Shown here one piece after another: positions 6,494 through 62,812 of a stretch of 64,000 nucleotides of DNA (its first letter is position 1; each line of letters starts with the position of its first letter). The stretch is from Actinomycetota bacterium (lineage in GTDB: Bacteria; Actinomycetota; Thermoleophilia; Solirubrobacterales; JACPNS01). The position numbers and the translations under genes are program-made. The DNA lies in contig JACQZY010000018.1 in NCBI GenBank assembly GCA_016213645.1, positions 1 to 64,000 of the forward strand, written 5' to 3'. Below the pieces are notes generated by a model. It did not search any database. It saw only the letters and a list, made by a program, of their open reading frames with translations, and was not told where the DNA came from.

Positions 6494-8755
6494 TCATTCA
6501 AGCCCAGCGATATCCCCTGGCCGGTCTTCAGGATCCGAGTCGCGCTCGCCCGCCACGCGCCGTCCGCGAATGTCGCGATTGGGCATCGCGGAGACCGAGC
6601 CTCGCGCCGAAGCGGCATCAAGCTTGAACTGCCCCATCATCTCCCGCAGCCGATCGGCTGTGGCAGCCAAGTTTTCGGCAAACGCGCTCACTTCTTCTGC
6701 GGTGGCGTTTGTTTCCTCGGTGGAGGCGGACATCTCTTCCGTTGATCCAGCCGTCTGCTCGGCGACCGCGGCAACGCCGTCAACGTGATCGCCCACCGCC
6801 ACGGCGGCGGACTGCATCTCGATCGCCAGCTCCGCGGCGCGCGAAGAGTTTTCCTGCAAAGCCGCGATCGCAGCCTGGATGTCGGCAAACGCCGCCTTGT
6901 TGTCCGACGCCGCACGAAGCCCGTCCGCGGCTCGCTGATCGCCGGCCTCGACGGCACTTGTGACATTGAGAGTCTCCAGCTTGACCTGGCGGATTATCTC
7001 CGCGATCTCCCCCGCTGCCTCACGCGATTGCTCGGCCAGAGCCCGCACCTCATCCGCCACAACCGCAAAGCCCTTGCCCTGTTCACCGGCACGAGCGGCT
7101 TCGATCGCCGCATTCAGCGACAACAGGTTCGTCTGATCGGCGATCGCCTGAATAGACGTCACGATCTGGTCAATGTTCGCGGACTTCTGGCTAAGCGACC
7201 GGATCGCCTCCGCCGAATCCGCGGCACTTGCCGAGACGGACTCAATCGATTGCTCAACCACTTCAGCCTGACGCATCCCTTCGCGCGCAAGTTCGATCGC
7301 CCCGGCCGCTCGGTGCCGGCCGTCTTGGGAGATTTCCGCCGACGTGTGAATCATCCGTTCGAGTTCGTCAATCGTTTCGCGCGACGTGGAAACAAGTTCG
7401 ACCTGATTTGACGTGCCCTGGGTGATGTGCTCCATGGCCAGCGCCACCTCGCCGACCGCGCGGCCGGCTTCGTTTGAACTCTTGGCCAAATCTCCAGACG
7501 CGTTTTGCAGGCCGGTCGCCGTGTCTCCGATCCTCCCGACAATCCCACGCAACGACACGATCAAGGCGTTGAACGCCGAACCGGAACGACCGACCGCGTC
7601 GCTGCCCAGCGGCGGCACCTCCAGGGTTAGATCCCCGCGAGCCACGCTCTCCATCGAATCCCGCAGGAGTTTCAGTCGGCTGTTGACACCAGCCCAAACC
7701 CGCTGCACGGTCAGCAGCGGAATTGCGAACATCAGGATGCCCAGCAGCAGCCAGTCGCGCAGCGTCGGGATCACCGTCAAACCCGCCGTCGCGGCCTCGT
7801 GCGGCACTACGACGGCAACGCGCCAGTCAATATCTCCGCCGCGCTGCGCCACGACTTTCTCGACAGCTTCGATTTCGTCTTCTTCGTCGGACTCGGCCAT
7901 TCCCGCGTTTGCCTCCGCCAGCTTGGCGTCGCCGACCTTTTCGAACGGCTGATTGACGGGCGCCGCGCGGTCGCTGTCCAGAATCGCGCGACCGGCGTCA
8001 TCCATCACAAGCACGCGCTCACCAGAACCCTTTACGGAATCGGTGACCGCGCGGTCGGCGTTGCGCGCGAGACGCCACATCGCGTTGAGGTTGATTTCGA
8101 AGTGCCAAACCAGCGCCGGCTTACCGTGAAGGTAAAGCGGCGTGGCGCTGGACAACACCCAGCGATTCGTGTCGCCGGAGATGTAGAGGCTCTGATACAC
8201 GCGGCCACGGCCGGCGCGCGCAGCCTTCTGAAAGAAGGCGCTGCCCCACTCGCCGGAACCTCCGACCGAAAGGTCCGAGTCCGGAGCACGCTTGCCGTAC
8301 ACGTAGCGCGCCATCTCGGGCGCGTACGCGCCGTGTCGAGAACCGAGTCCGTATCCGGCCGCGCCCTTCGGTCTGCCGCGGCCATCCGAAACCCACGCGA
8401 TCGCGCAGTTCTCGTCGATCACGCCGCTGTTTGCACGCGCAAGCACGCTCATCTCCTCCCAAACCGCACGCAATTCGGAAGACCTGCTTGCAGGATTGGA
8501 GATCGCATCGATCAACGCGTCGTTGGTGCCCGAAAACAGCAACTGCTTGCGATACGTGTCCAGTTCATCCGACAGCCGCGCCGCCAGCTTGCCGGATTCG
8601 GCCCGCGCCACCGCCGTGGCGCGATCAACCCTACGCTCGCGCTCCGACCGGTATCCCGAGAGCATCACCACCAACAGCAGAATCCACGCCGCCCCAAGCA
8701 GCAACGCGAGGCGCACGCGAAAATCAAGGCGTGTCGTGTGAGTTCGTTTTTCCAC
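6494..8755 (-). CDS. Methyl-accepting chemotaxis protein
   Basis: 753 residues from a GTG start. TM1 is [20 protein letters not shown] (~16-35). A ~290-residue extracytoplasmic sensory region (Cache-like, ligand unknown) follows, then TM2 ([18 protein letters not shown]). A HAMP region ([20 protein letters not shown]) leads into a long coiled-coil signalling domain. The conserved hairpin tip is present ([20 protein letters not shown], then [17 protein letters not shown]), where CheA and CheW dock. No C-terminal CheR-tethering pentapeptide is seen. No che genes are nearby, so this is an orphan receptor. Confidence 0.92.
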
Positions 8756-22633: not shown

Positions 22634-24481
22634 ATGGACCAGGAAGGATCGGGTTTGAAAGATCAAGGGAAGCGGAACGGCACGCCACGCCGAGCCACCG
22701 ATTCACTGGCGGCCGCGCTGGCCGACGAGTACCTGGACAGACTTCTCGCCGCCGACCGCCAAGGCGCCGACGAGGTGATTGACCGCGCCCTGCGCGGCGG
22801 CATCGAACCCGCGGCGATTCACGTGCTTGTGATCGGCGCCGCGATGGAAAACATCGGCCGGTTGTGGGAAGTGGACAAGATCACCGTCGCGGACGAGCAT
22901 CTGGCCACCGCGATCAGCCATCAGGTGCTGATCCGCCTAATCGAAGCGCTGCACACCGCGGCGCCCGGTTCGCGCGAAAACGTTTTGCTTGCCGCGATCG
23001 AGGGACAGCACCACGTCCTTGGACTGCGCATGGTCGCCGACGTGCTGGAGGGAGCGGGTTACAACGTGCTCTACCTGGGACCAGATGTGCCCGTGGACTC
23101 GTTGCGCGATTTCGCCGCACAGCACAATCCGGTCGTCACCGGCCTGTCTTACGCGGTACCGCTGAACGTGAACAATCTCGCGGAGTCGGTTTTCGCGGTA
23201 CGAGAGGCAGCGCCGATGACCCGCGTCATGCTCGGCGGCCGCGCGGCGCCGCGCGATCTCGGCGCCACGGGTATTCCCTGGATCGCAAGCAGCCTGGACG
23301 TGCTGGATCGCGTGCGGCGGCTGATTGACGAGCCGCCACTGGAGATTCCGGCGCTTTTTCACGTGCTTCGCACCAAGCTCGCGCACACGCCGGAGCCGGT
23401 CGAACAGCAAACGGCGGAGTTGGAGGTGGCCGAGCGACTTGCGAACATCGCCGCCCAGTCCAGCGAGATCTCCCGCGAGTACGCGCGCCGCGCCGAGACC
23501 TATCGCGATCTCTCGTTGCGCGACCCCGTCACGGATCTCGCCAATCGCCGCGCCTTCGACGACAAAATCCACTCACACACTCGCGATTCCGCCGGGCAGG
23601 GCGCGCTACTGCTGATCGACGTGGACGAGTTCAAGTACGTCAATGACACCTTCGGCCACGACGAAGGCGATCGCCAACTCGTGCTGGTCGCGCACGCGAT
23701 TGCGGACACGGTGCGTCCGAACGACTTCTGTGCGCGCATCGGCGGCGATGAATTCGCGGTACTTCTGCCGGTGGCAACGTTGCGCGAAGCCCATGAGGTT
23801 GGCGAGCGCGTGCGCCGCGCGGTGGCCGAGCGCGCCGACCGGCCGCTGACCGTGAGCGTCGGCGCAACGCCGGTCACAAGCGACGCGCGCGCCACGCTGA
23901 TGGCGGTGGACGAGGCGCTTTACGCGGCGAAGTCCGCCGGACGCGACACGGTCATAGCGTCGGGCTTGAACATCGTGGCGAACGGCAACGGCAACGGCGG
24001 CGGCGAATCCGATGGAGCGCGCACGGACATCGGCGCAGGCGGAAGTTCCGGCGTCTCAAAGGTCGCACGCGCACGTTCCAATGCGGGTGTCGGCAGCGAC
24101 ACGGCGGCCGATGCCGGTGCCGGTGCAGATGTAGACGCACGCGCGGAAAGCGACAGCGGCGAAAGCGGCTCGATATACGTCTCCATGTCACGTCTGCAGG
24201 TTTCCAAGCAACGCGCCGACGAACTGGTCGAGGCGTTTCGCCGCCGCGCCGGTCTGGTGGACGGAGCCGACGGATTCCTGGGCTTGGAGGTTTGGCAGTC
24301 AGATCGCGATGAGGGCGAGGTGCTGATGGTCAGCCACTGGCAAAACCGCGATGCCTTCAAGGCCTACATGAAGAGCGGTGAGCATCAAGAGTCCCACGGA
24401 CGCATCGACCCGGACCTCAAGGCCGCGATCAAGCTGATGCGTCTGGAGCACATGCACACCTACAAGGTCGTCGCCACGTGA
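22634..24481 (+). CDS. Cobalamin-binding / GGDEF / ABM fusion, candidate B12 photoreceptor diguanylate cyclase
   Basis: 615 residues. A helical cap (~25-110) and Rossmann B12-binding domain (~115-235) resemble CarH: W78-x9-E88-H89 in the cap and H127-VLG in the lower-ligand loop, with VLYLGPDVP after it. A short coiled coil leads to a GGDEF domain (~295-445) with RIGGDEF at 370-374 and an inhibitory I-site R361xxD364 five residues before it. A Gly/Ala/Asp/Ser-rich linker (450-512) joins a C-terminal ABM/IsdG-like domain (513-615; VWQSDRDEGEVLMVSHWQ, SGEHQESHGRI). It should make c-di-GMP under control of cobalamin. ATG 22634 is chosen; GTG 22574 or a TTG at 22655 are possible. The gene is coupled to the next gene by 4 bp. 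Light sensing and the ABM role are inference. Confidence 0.85.
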   Translation: MDQEGSGLKDQGKRNGTPRRATDSLAAALADEYLDRLLAADRQGADEVIDRALRGGIEPAAIHVLVIGAAMENIGRLWEVDKITVADEHLATAISHQVLIRLIEALHTAAPGSRENVLLAAIEGQHHVLGLRMVADVLEGAGYNVLYLGPDVPVDSLRDFAAQHNPVVTGLSYAVPLNVNNLAESVFAVREAAPMTRVMLGGRAAPRDLGATGIPWIASSLDVLDRVRRLIDEPPLEIPALFHVLRTKLAHTPEPVEQQTAELEVAERLANIAAQSSEISREYARRAETYRDLSLRDPVTDLANRRAFDDKIHSHTRDSAGQGALLLIDVDEFKYVNDTFGHDEGDRQLVLVAHAIADTVRPNDFCARIGGDEFAVLLPVATLREAHEVGERVRRAVAERADRPLTVSVGATPVTSDARATLMAVDEALYAAKSAGRDTVIASGLNIVANGNGNGGGESDGARTDIGAGGSSGVSKVARARSNAGVGSDTAADAGAGADVDARAESDSGESGSIYVSMSRLQVSKQRADELVEAFRRRAGLVDGADGFLGLEVWQSDRDEGEVLMVSHWQNRDAFKAYMKSGEHQESHGRIDPDLKAAIKLMRLEHMHTYKVVAT

Positions 24482-24882
24482 ATCTGCGCGCGCCCAGCGG
24501 TACGCCTCCCCCGGCCGGCGCCGAATTCGCCGGTAAACGGCTGGACCTGGTCGCGCTAGCGAGCGAAATCTGCGACCGCTACCACCACGAGTTCGACGAC
24601 GAACACGATCGCTACGGCGACGCCGGCGCAGAGTGGTGCCGACACGACAACCGCTGGCTGCTGGCCTGGGCGGTGGACGACGCGCTGGGCGCGACCGACC
24701 TCGGCGAACAGGTCGCCTGGCTGACGCGTGTGCTGCACGGCCGTGGGTTTCCCGTGGAGCGACTGGCGCGCGATCTGGAGATCGCGGCGGACGTGATTAC
24801 GGAACGGCTTGGCGAAGGTGGCGCGCCGGTGTCCGAACGGCTGCGCACCGCGGCGGCGAGTGTGTCGGTGCCGGAGTCGTAA
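24478..24882 (+). CDS. Hypothetical helical protein coupled to the B12-GGDEF gene
   Basis: 134 residues starting at a GTG that overlaps the upstream stop (GTGA), so translation is coupled. Mostly alpha-helical and acidic: LVALASEICDRYHHEFDDEH, WLLAWAVDDALGATDLGEQV, AWLTRVLHGRGFPVERLARD, LEIAADVITERLG. The second half resembles the helical cap seen in front of B12-binding domains, but no Rossmann part follows. I do not recognise the family. The coupling suggests a partner or regulator of the preceding signalling protein. Confidence 0.65.
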   Translation: MNLRAPSGTPPPAGAEFAGKRLDLVALASEICDRYHHEFDDEHDRYGDAGAEWCRHDNRWLLAWAVDDALGATDLGEQVAWLTRVLHGRGFPVERLARDLEIAADVITERLGEGGAPVSERLRTAAASVSVPES

Positions 24883-60392: not shown

Positions 60393-60523
60393 TGCGGCGA
60401 CTCTACAGGAAGTGAGAAGCGTGATCAAACCGCGGGGAGCGGGACGATCACTCTGAAGATTCACACCGGTGCGGCAGGTGGCGGCAGGATGCCCAAGCCC
60501 CGCGAAACCGGGAAACGCAGGAA

Positions 60524-62812
60524 ATGGCAGAAATGCGAAAAGCCCACGGCGCCAGGGACGGCGCGAACGAGGAAACCGGGGACCGGCCGGGCGCCGCGAG
60601 CACCCGTGCGCGAATTCCGACGCCCGCCGTTGATCAGGCGCAACTTCCGGCCACAGCGTTCACCCGCATAACTCGCCGACGTGGCGCCGAGCCGGTCGAC
60701 GAGGTCGGAATTCCCTACCGCGTGCACTATTGGCTCTTGGCGGTGTTCGCGTTCGGGATCGGCCTCTCGACACTGGTCTTTTCGTTCACCGAGATCGGCG
60801 ACGATCTCGCATCGCCGTTTGTACGGGCGATCTGCGTCACCGGGATTCTGCTGGCACCGGCAATCGTGTTGGCCGCCCGCGCTCAGCGGTATCGCTTCGA
60901 CGCGCGGATATTTCACGGCGCGATGCTTTACGCCACGATCGCACCATTCGCGTGTCAACAGGTGATGGTCGAGAGCCGAGCGCAGTATCAGATCCTATTC
61001 GTCGTGGGCGCCATCGGCGCGGCGTTCTACCTGCCGCTGCGTCAGGCCGTCCCGCACATCACGTTGTCCGTGGCGGTGCTGCTGACGATGGGCGCGACGA
61101 TCCACGACGACGAGTCAGTGCTGCGCTCGCTGATCGTTGCGACATTCGTGGTCTGTTCGTCTCTGATGATCAGCGCCGTGCGACGGCAGTTGAAGTTCAC
61201 TGTCAAGCTCAATCACACGCTGGCAGAGTGCGACGGTCTGACGGGCGCATTCAACCTGCGCAGCTTCGAACGGAGGCTGGCCCACGAGATCGCGCGAGCC
61301 CAACGTGGCGGTGGCGGCTTCGCGCTGATCGAGTTTGACCTTAATAGCTTCAAGCAGGTCAACGACCGGTACGACCACAGCACCGGCGACGAAGTTCTGG
61401 TGGCAACGGCCGACGCGATTCGCTCGGCCTTCGGCGGCGCCGACATGCTCGTGCGCAGAGGCGGCGACGAGTTCGTCGTGATCGCACCGGGCGGCCCGGA
61501 CCGCGATCTAAACGAACCGATTCGCAAGGCGTGCAAACGTGTAGCTTGGGCACGGCATCAGATTTGTGACGACGTCGATCCAACGATCAGATGCGCGACA
61601 ACGCGATTTCAGCCGGGCGACACCGCGGAAGACGTTTATCGCCGCGCCGACGAGGCGCTGCACGACGCGAAGCCGCCGGCAGGCGGCAGCGGTGAGCCTG
61701 ACGTTTCGCCACGCTCGGCGGTCGTGCTGCCCTGCCCAACGCCGGACACCGATGAAGTCCGGGAGTTACGCGAGCGGCGGGTCGACGGGGCCGAACTGAG
61801 CAGCGATCCGATCATCGGCGCGCGGCGCGTAATTTGGAAGACCACCGCCGCCGCGATCCTGACGATCGCGGTCGCCGTCGATGCGTGCGCGCTGCTTGGT
61901 CTGAGCAACCTCGCTTTCTCGCTTCGTTCGATCGGAATATCACTGTTCTGGGTTGTCGTGTTTGCTCCTGTGGTCTGGCGAATGGCCTCGCGGCGCGAAC
62001 AACCGGAGCATCTTCTCCACCTTTTAGCGGTCGCCGCGCTGGGGATGATCACGTTCGGCTGCATCGTGGCCGGCAGCAGCGCTCCGGCGCTGGTCGAGAG
62101 CTACCTGCTCGTCGTGCTCGCCGTAGCCGCGATCCTCTCGGTGCGAGCCGCGATCTCATACATGGCGGCCGCGACCGTTCTTTACGCGACGATCCTGTTC
62201 GCCAACGATTACCCGCTGGCCACCATTCAGCTGGTCAACACGGTTCTGCTGATCGGGCTTTCCGCTTGGCTACTGGCATACACGCGCGGTCGCACGATCG
62301 TTGCCGCACGCGAGAAACTTCAGCTCGCCCACACCGACGCACTTACCGGCCTGCCGAATCCTCGGCGGCTGAGCGAACGCCTGACCGCCGAGATTCGCCG
62401 AAGCAAATCGACCGGGCAGCCGCTGGCGATGCTGATGCTCGACCTGGACCACTTCAAGCTCGTCAACGATCTCTTCAGTCACTCCGTCGGCGACGAGGTG
62501 CTGCTCGCCGTCACGGATGCCCTGCTGCGGACGGCGCGGCGCACCGATATGCCGGCACGGCGCGGCGGCGATGAGTTCGCGGTCGTGCTGTCGGACTCCG
62601 ACGCTCGCGACGCCACGACGGCACGCGACCGCGTGGCCGCCGCAATCGCCTCGGCGCGTGCGCGGGTTTGCCCGGAAATCACCCCCACCGCCAGCGTCGG
62701 ATGGGTGGTGTGGCGCGAGGGCGAAAGCACGGAGGACTTCCTGGCCCGCGCCGACGCCGCGCTGAACCTGGAGAAAAAGGCGCGCCGACGGGACCGAACG
62801 CTGGTTTATTAG
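60524..62812 (+). CDS. Dual membrane-GGDEF protein
   Basis: 762 residues with two modules. Module 1: about five helices (66-215) then GGDEF 1 (ECDGLTGAFNLRSFERRLAH; VRRGGDEFVVIAP, motif at 313-317). Its I-site position is G304-GA-D307, lacking the Arg. Module 2: about six helices (~430-590) then GGDEF 2 (HTDALTGLPNPRRLSERLTA; ARRGGDEFAVVL, motif at 681-685) with an intact I-site RRTD (672-675). Both GGDEF signatures are complete, so both may make c-di-GMP, with feedback only on the second. The first ~60 residues are polar and unstructured. ATG 60524 or 60533. Confidence 0.88.
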   Translation: MAEMRKAHGARDGANEETGDRPGAASTRARIPTPAVDQAQLPATAFTRITRRRGAEPVDEVGIPYRVHYWLLAVFAFGIGLSTLVFSFTEIGDDLASPFVRAICVTGILLAPAIVLAARAQRYRFDARIFHGAMLYATIAPFACQQVMVESRAQYQILFVVGAIGAAFYLPLRQAVPHITLSVAVLLTMGATIHDDESVLRSLIVATFVVCSSLMISAVRRQLKFTVKLNHTLAECDGLTGAFNLRSFERRLAHEIARAQRGGGGFALIEFDLNSFKQVNDRYDHSTGDEVLVATADAIRSAFGGADMLVRRGGDEFVVIAPGGPDRDLNEPIRKACKRVAWARHQICDDVDPTIRCATTRFQPGDTAEDVYRRADEALHDAKPPAGGSGEPDVSPRSAVVLPCPTPDTDEVRELRERRVDGAELSSDPIIGARRVIWKTTAAAILTIAVAVDACALLGLSNLAFSLRSIGISLFWVVVFAPVVWRMASRREQPEHLLHLLAVAALGMITFGCIVAGSSAPALVESYLLVVLAVAAILSVRAAISYMAAATVLYATILFANDYPLATIQLVNTVLLIGLSAWLLAYTRGRTIVAAREKLQLAHTDALTGLPNPRRLSERLTAEIRRSKSTGQPLAMLMLDLDHFKLVNDLFSHSVGDEVLLAVTDALLRTARRTDMPARRGGDEFAVVLSDSDARDATTARDRVAAAIASARARVCPEITPTASVGWVVWREGESTEDFLARADAALNLEKKARRRDRTLVY

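Follow-up and report, generated by a model that had tools for sequence, protein, structure and literature searches.

The locus analysed here raises the question of what might be done by a single protein in which a cobalamin sensor, a diguanylate cyclase and an ABM domain follow one another. The protein is encoded in a stretch of 64,000 nucleotides (the window) from a soil actinobacterium with a genome of 2.42 Mb that is 93% complete. Our preferred reading, to which we assign a probability of about 0.62, is a split photocobilin diguanylate cyclase: cobalamin light chemistry would set c-di-GMP, and the ABM domain plausibly makes or handles the bilin.

An uninterrupted open reading frame was found by translation to encode all 615 aa of the protein. 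The four domains named in the original prediction were all recovered by Pfam, in the order B12-binding_2 (E-value 3.9e-12), B12-binding (5.2e-14), GGDEF (1.7e-35) and ABM (5e-16), and each match exceeds its curated cut-off. The features of the locus are as follows.

22634 to 24481, + strand: cobalamin sensor, diguanylate cyclase and ABM fusion, 615 aa (translation, Pfam)
22721 to 22936, + strand: helical cap, B12-binding_2, aa 30-101, with G75xxW78 and E88-H89 (Pfam, motifs)
22982 to 23245, + strand: Rossmann cobalamin domain, B12-binding, aa 117-204, with the lower ligand H127 (GQHH) and G149xxxP153 (Pfam, PDB match, motifs)
23516 to 23947, + strand: GGDEF domain, aa 295-438, RIGGDEF at 370-374, I-site R361xxD364 (Pfam, motifs)
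23960 to 24169, + strand: low-complexity Gly/Ala/Ser/Asp linker from GGDEF to ABM
24179 to 24478, + strand: ABM domain with a conserved C-terminal strand; Ser519, Trp569 and His588 at the positions of the Asn/Trp/His triad of the IsdG family (Pfam, alignment, structure match)
24478 to 24882, + strand: partner gene D, 134 aa, stand-alone bilin-globin of the photoglobin/phycobiliprotein type with C54-x-H56-D57 and W81

Translation and a motif check placed W78, E79, E88-H89 and H127 exactly where they had been predicted. The cyclase is intact as foreseen, with GGDEF at 370-374 and an I-site (R361-P-N-D364) at the standard distance of five residues from G370. The linker lies at a position which in relatives is a gene boundary or, in genome G628, a similar linker. 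No globin was matched within the 615-aa protein, in which the gap between the Rossmann domain and GGDEF measures only about 90 aa. Among plasmid sequences no place covers 80% of the whole protein.

Cyclase domains are numerous in this genome, with 46 GGDEF matches in 2.42 Mb, many of them paired within a single open frame of about 770 aa. One such double-GGDEF frame is located in the window at 60425-62809 (+), and both of its GGDEF motifs are intact.

The cobalamin sensor

All four published light-response motifs (SignatureFinder) are present in the sensor: G75xxW78 (G75-R-L-W78, followed by E79), E88-H89, G124xxH127 (G124-Q-H-H127) and G149xxxP153. In a comparison of 79 cobalamin domains, the GxxW-x9-EH signature was found in every row of photocobilins, CarH and CtMerR; it is missing from all 12 corrinoid proteins and from the MetH of this genome. 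The sensor scored 74.9 bits with the CarH model versus 52.6 bits with the best corrinoid methyltransferase model, and its best PDB match was the stand-alone photocobilin SasPcob (8J2W/8J2X; E 2e-21), with CtMerR and TtCarH next. In the best tree the sensor groups with relatives from its order in a clade of eight rows (support 96), separate from the clade formed by corrinoid proteins and MetH (support 100), although a forced grouping with the corrinoid proteins was not rejected by the AU test (p 0.17), so that the tree alone is not decisive. The signature, the HMM scores and the position in the tree all disfavor a methyltransferase corrinoid protein. The predicted CarH-type sensor is supported by the sequence comparisons as one of the CarH/photocobilin type, with the AU result as the weak point.

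CarH (TtCarH) and CtMerR share the GxxW, EH, GxxH and GxxxP signature with the sensor; in contrast to them, the 615-aa protein gave no Pfam match to a MerR DNA-binding domain, and no His follows the signature Trp for the bis-His ligation of the light state of TtCarH. The residue at this place is Glu79, and the original prediction had warned that the photochemistry may differ for this reason. This caveat loses weight, because photoactive receptors carry other residues there, namely Arg in CtMerR, Gln in SasPcob and Tyr in AbDPcob (PMC11796333).

An alternative for the whole protein is that the cap and Rossmann domain report the supply of AdoCbl, that apo and AdoCbl-bound states set cyclase activity and that photolysis is incidental. 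Binding of AdoCbl alone lowers the activity of AbDPcob relative to the apo form, the lower-ligand motif is QHH, with Gln two residues before the His where photocobilins have E/DxH, and a light response cannot be demonstrated from sequence. We nevertheless regard this alternative as improbable: the full light-response signature and a bilin-globin partner point to light, and tested proteins with the signature were photoactive, whereas a tested protein lacking it bound only OHCbl. Given a supply of cobalamin, AdoCbl itself can be made, because a PduO-type cobalamin adenosyltransferase is encoded in the genome. A search for a cobalamin riboswitch upstream found none in the 64,000-nt window, only a tRNA.

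The closest relative of the sensor and GGDEF parts (locus L113 in genome G163, 7155-8453) has a degenerate GGDAF motif and neither ABM nor globin adjoining. In Ilyobacter polytropus, a fusobacterium that comes from marine mud, a plasmid carries a GGDEF gene overlapping with the gene of a cobalamin protein that has the signature (L225, 2551-4594); this overlap suggests a pairing of B12 protein and cyclase outside the Actinomycetota.

The partner bilin-globin gene

The fusion gene is coupled to a second gene. The GTG start of the 134-aa partner (24478-24882) overlaps the stop codon of the fusion gene in the sequence GTGA. While the domains of the fusion had been predicted correctly, this downstream gene had been missed, as had the set of ABM, globin and B12 genes to which it belongs.

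The partner belongs to no Pfam or NCBIfam family, and neither the single sequence nor a profile of nine sequences gave a significant PDB match. The nine stand-alone globins, as a profile free of photocobilins, found a globin fused to a haem oxygenase in genome G008 (E 2e-10) and also photocobilin globins (E 3e-8 and 3e-6, in addition to weaker ones), located as expected after the cobalamin domain. After addition of two fused relatives to the profile, the top PDB match was SasPcob (E 0.0045). An AF2 model predicted from two sequences, that of the window and that of L003, reached a pLDDT of 89.2 and a pTM of 0.84. Foldseek matched this model to SasPcob (probability 1.00, TM 0.60), phycobilisome proteins (TM 0.66-0.67) and haemoglobins (TM about 0.55), with weak E-values of 0.07-0.3. 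The treatment of the gene as an unknown was set aside once the fused relatives had been added to the profile and the structures compared. Model and alignments identify the partner as a bilin-globin relative, predicted to have a globin fold with a variant bilin motif. No viral relatives of it were found.

Asp270 and Trp296, which contact biliverdin in SasPcob, align with D57 and W81 of the partner when L153 is used as a bridge, and both are invariant in 11/11 globins. A CXHD motif (C-x-H-D) is present in eight of the nine stand-alone globins. Covalent attachment of a bilin by these globins is possible, because the Cys is in register with that of the CXRD motif of phycobiliproteins and of the CXQD motif of photoglobins.

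SasPcob provides the best match to the sensor and the equivalent bilin contacts in its globin, but its sensor and globin are fused, it has no enzyme domain and it lacks the Cys that CXHD of the partner has at the phycobiliprotein position. A photocobilin (Pcob) is defined by cobalamin and bilin-globin in one chain; here the globin is encoded by the next gene. Split sets of globin and B12 protein are already known, because in the BBAG-2 clusters of Myxococcales a bilin-globin is encoded on its own, next to a B12-binding protein and the genes HO and FDBR for bilin synthesis (PMC10151467). The present locus differs from BBAG-2 by the ABM domain where no canonical haem oxygenase was found, by the fusion of the B12 protein with a diguanylate cyclase and by CXHD in place of the RGMC motif.

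The ABM domain and its gene neighbourhood

The ABM domain gains its meaning from the neighbouring bilin-globin gene and from the conserved set of ABM, globin and B12 genes. A search of 299 genomes of the class revealed eight strong members of the ABM subfamily including the window, the seven relatives being 53-68% identical, and a phylum sample of 397 genomes added one more locus in genome G428. In 9/9 ABM loci the bilin-globin is either the adjacent gene or part of the neighbouring B12 gene. The B12 gene adjoins or is fused in seven of the nine; the exceptions are G201, which lies at a contig edge, and G162, which has none. The outputs vary: GGDEF in the window and in G175 (where the gene is disrupted in the assembly), PAS-GGDEF-EAL in G093, a CarH-like MerR protein in G264 and an adjoining histidine kinase in G110. 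The gene set thus recurs across lineages. An ordinary background ABM domain was rejected as an explanation; the genome has no other ABM, and the subfamily of this domain is associated with globins.

In G428, GGDEF, ABM and photocobilin are three overlapping genes, and in G628, beside a photocobilin, a linker of low complexity connects ABM to the C-terminal end of a GGDEF domain within one fusion. By sequence, both are Rosetta-stone counterparts of the fusion in the window. They bear on a second alternative, according to which read-through into a neighbouring ABM gene produced an accidental fusion with no functional meaning and a light-insensitive cyclase. The low complexity of the linker, the usual separation of the ABM gene in relatives and the same-genus genomes that lack the whole gene set would fit such an accident. 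The recurrence of the GGDEF-ABM fusion in G628, the overlap of the same genes in G428 and the intact signature residues of both sensor and cyclase make it very improbable. As the same-genus genomes are without the whole gene set, we regard the set as an accessory trait.

Counted from the photocobilin side, with neighbour counts ascertained on B12 and kept separate from the ABM-based counts, ABM adjoins in only 3/25 loci and is not adjacent in 22/25. The link between ABM and photocobilins is real but not obligatory, because only these three loci have an ABM neighbour. Further loci of other arrangement were observed. In G226 and G270 (L151 and L152), a bilin-globin gene with neither ABM nor B12 gene beside it directly follows a frame of 770-803 aa on the same strand. 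In G162 (L147, 7084-9842), ABM and bilin-globin are flanked by a ferritin-like diiron protein and an HMG-CoA reductase, and the locus has no B12 gene.

The original prediction had also proposed that the ABM domain could act on a tetrapyrrole. Its AF2 model has IsdI with cobalt-protoporphyrin or haem as top Foldseek matches (E 4e-7). IsdG-family haem oxygenases require an Asn-Trp-His catalytic triad (PMC5557675). The domain shares fold, Trp and His with members of this family (IsdI, IsdG, MhuD, LFO1), but the fusion has Ser-Trp-His instead, and unlike them it is attached to a photoreceptor cyclase. Among the 11 ABM members aligned, Trp is kept in all, His in ten (it is lost in L188), and Asn is replaced by Ser throughout. 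The proposal is hence backed by fold and by Trp and His, and weakened by the exchanged Asn. No canonical haem oxygenase (PF01126) and no second ABM were detected in the genome, whose 93% completeness means that these absences are not proof. Of 17 genomes tested, only G008 encodes a haem oxygenase, and none of the 17 has both ABM and haem oxygenase. At the G008 locus (L154, 7050-9033) the haem oxygenase and a photoglobin-like domain form one fusion; a stand-alone gene for a cobalamin sensor lies upstream of it, and downstream of it there is a histidine kinase.

From this context the domain plausibly serves to make, alter or pass on the bilin, which we consider about as likely as a structural role. 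As a non-catalytic dimer or docking module, ABM would couple the globin, B12 and GGDEF parts, and the bilin would come from elsewhere or be absent. This role for ABM is a serious contender at somewhat under even odds. ABM folds commonly dimerise, most photocobilin loci have no ABM, and the Ser substitution together with the His lost in one member would be at home in such a module; the conservation of Trp and His in the other members, the haem-bound IsdI proteins as closest folds and the lack of co-occurrence of ABM and haem oxygenase in the 17 genomes tested speak against it. A stronger version of the enzymatic reading, which we put forward only tentatively and consider unlikely, is that the subfamily is a new bilin-forming or bilin-modifying enzyme (Ser-Trp-His) dedicated to cobalamin photoreceptors. 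One coupled gene pair would then code for the sensing of light, the output of c-di-GMP, the enzyme for the chromophore and an antenna that binds the bilin, perhaps covalently via Cys54.

A proposed mechanism and its meaning

For a split photocobilin diguanylate cyclase, photochemistry, direction of control and docking may be modelled by analogy with AbDPcob and SasPcob. In the dark, AdoCbl would be bound base-off/His-on (H127) under the cap with W78, E88 and H89 and would hold the cap-Rossmann pair in a CarH-like dimer with low GGDEF output. Green light would break the Co-C bond, adenosine would leave and the E88/H89 helix would move. The released GGDEF dimer would produce c-di-GMP, with feedback through the I-site. 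The 134-aa globin would bind a bilin and dock on the cobalamin domain in trans, like the fused globin of photocobilins, and could in this position extend the sensitivity to red light or stabilise the dark state. The attached ABM domain, from a subfamily that travels with globins, would most likely make, modify or hand over the bilin.

The closest known system is AbDPcob from an Acidimicrobiaceae bacterium, a fusion of cobalamin photoreceptor and diguanylate cyclase in which AdoCbl lowers the dark activity and light raises the turnover more than 10-fold (PMC10979010). Both proteins control a diguanylate cyclase by cap and Rossmann domain within one chain and have a residue other than His after the signature Trp. 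AbDPcob, however, holds the bilin-globin in its own chain and has no ABM, whereas the present locus encodes the globin in a coupled gene of its own and has ABM after GGDEF. The predicted control of c-di-GMP by light or B12 gains from the sensor signature, the intact cyclase and this precedent, but the same precedent shows that it is not new: that a B12 light sensor sets c-di-GMP is already published, AbDPcob being a light-activated cyclase with a cobalamin sensor. Our literature search for cobalamin, diguanylate cyclase and ABM in combination found nothing within its scope, outside of which lies a photoglobin survey (PMC8717448) that may contain an earlier mention of the ABM link. As far as the literature covered shows, the replacement of haem oxygenase by ABM, the fusion of ABM with a cyclase and the use of a cyclase as output by a split set are new.

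Light-gated cobalamin cyclases were shown in 2024, and the source of the bilin and the action of a globin in trans are the questions that this locus addresses. The two-gene system physically links sensor, output, globin and candidate chromophore enzyme, and both questions are addressable with two proteins. The system would widen the green/red optogenetic toolbox for c-di-GMP. If the ABM domain is catalytic, it adds a haem-to-bilin enzyme with an altered triad, and the gene set may make its own second pigment.
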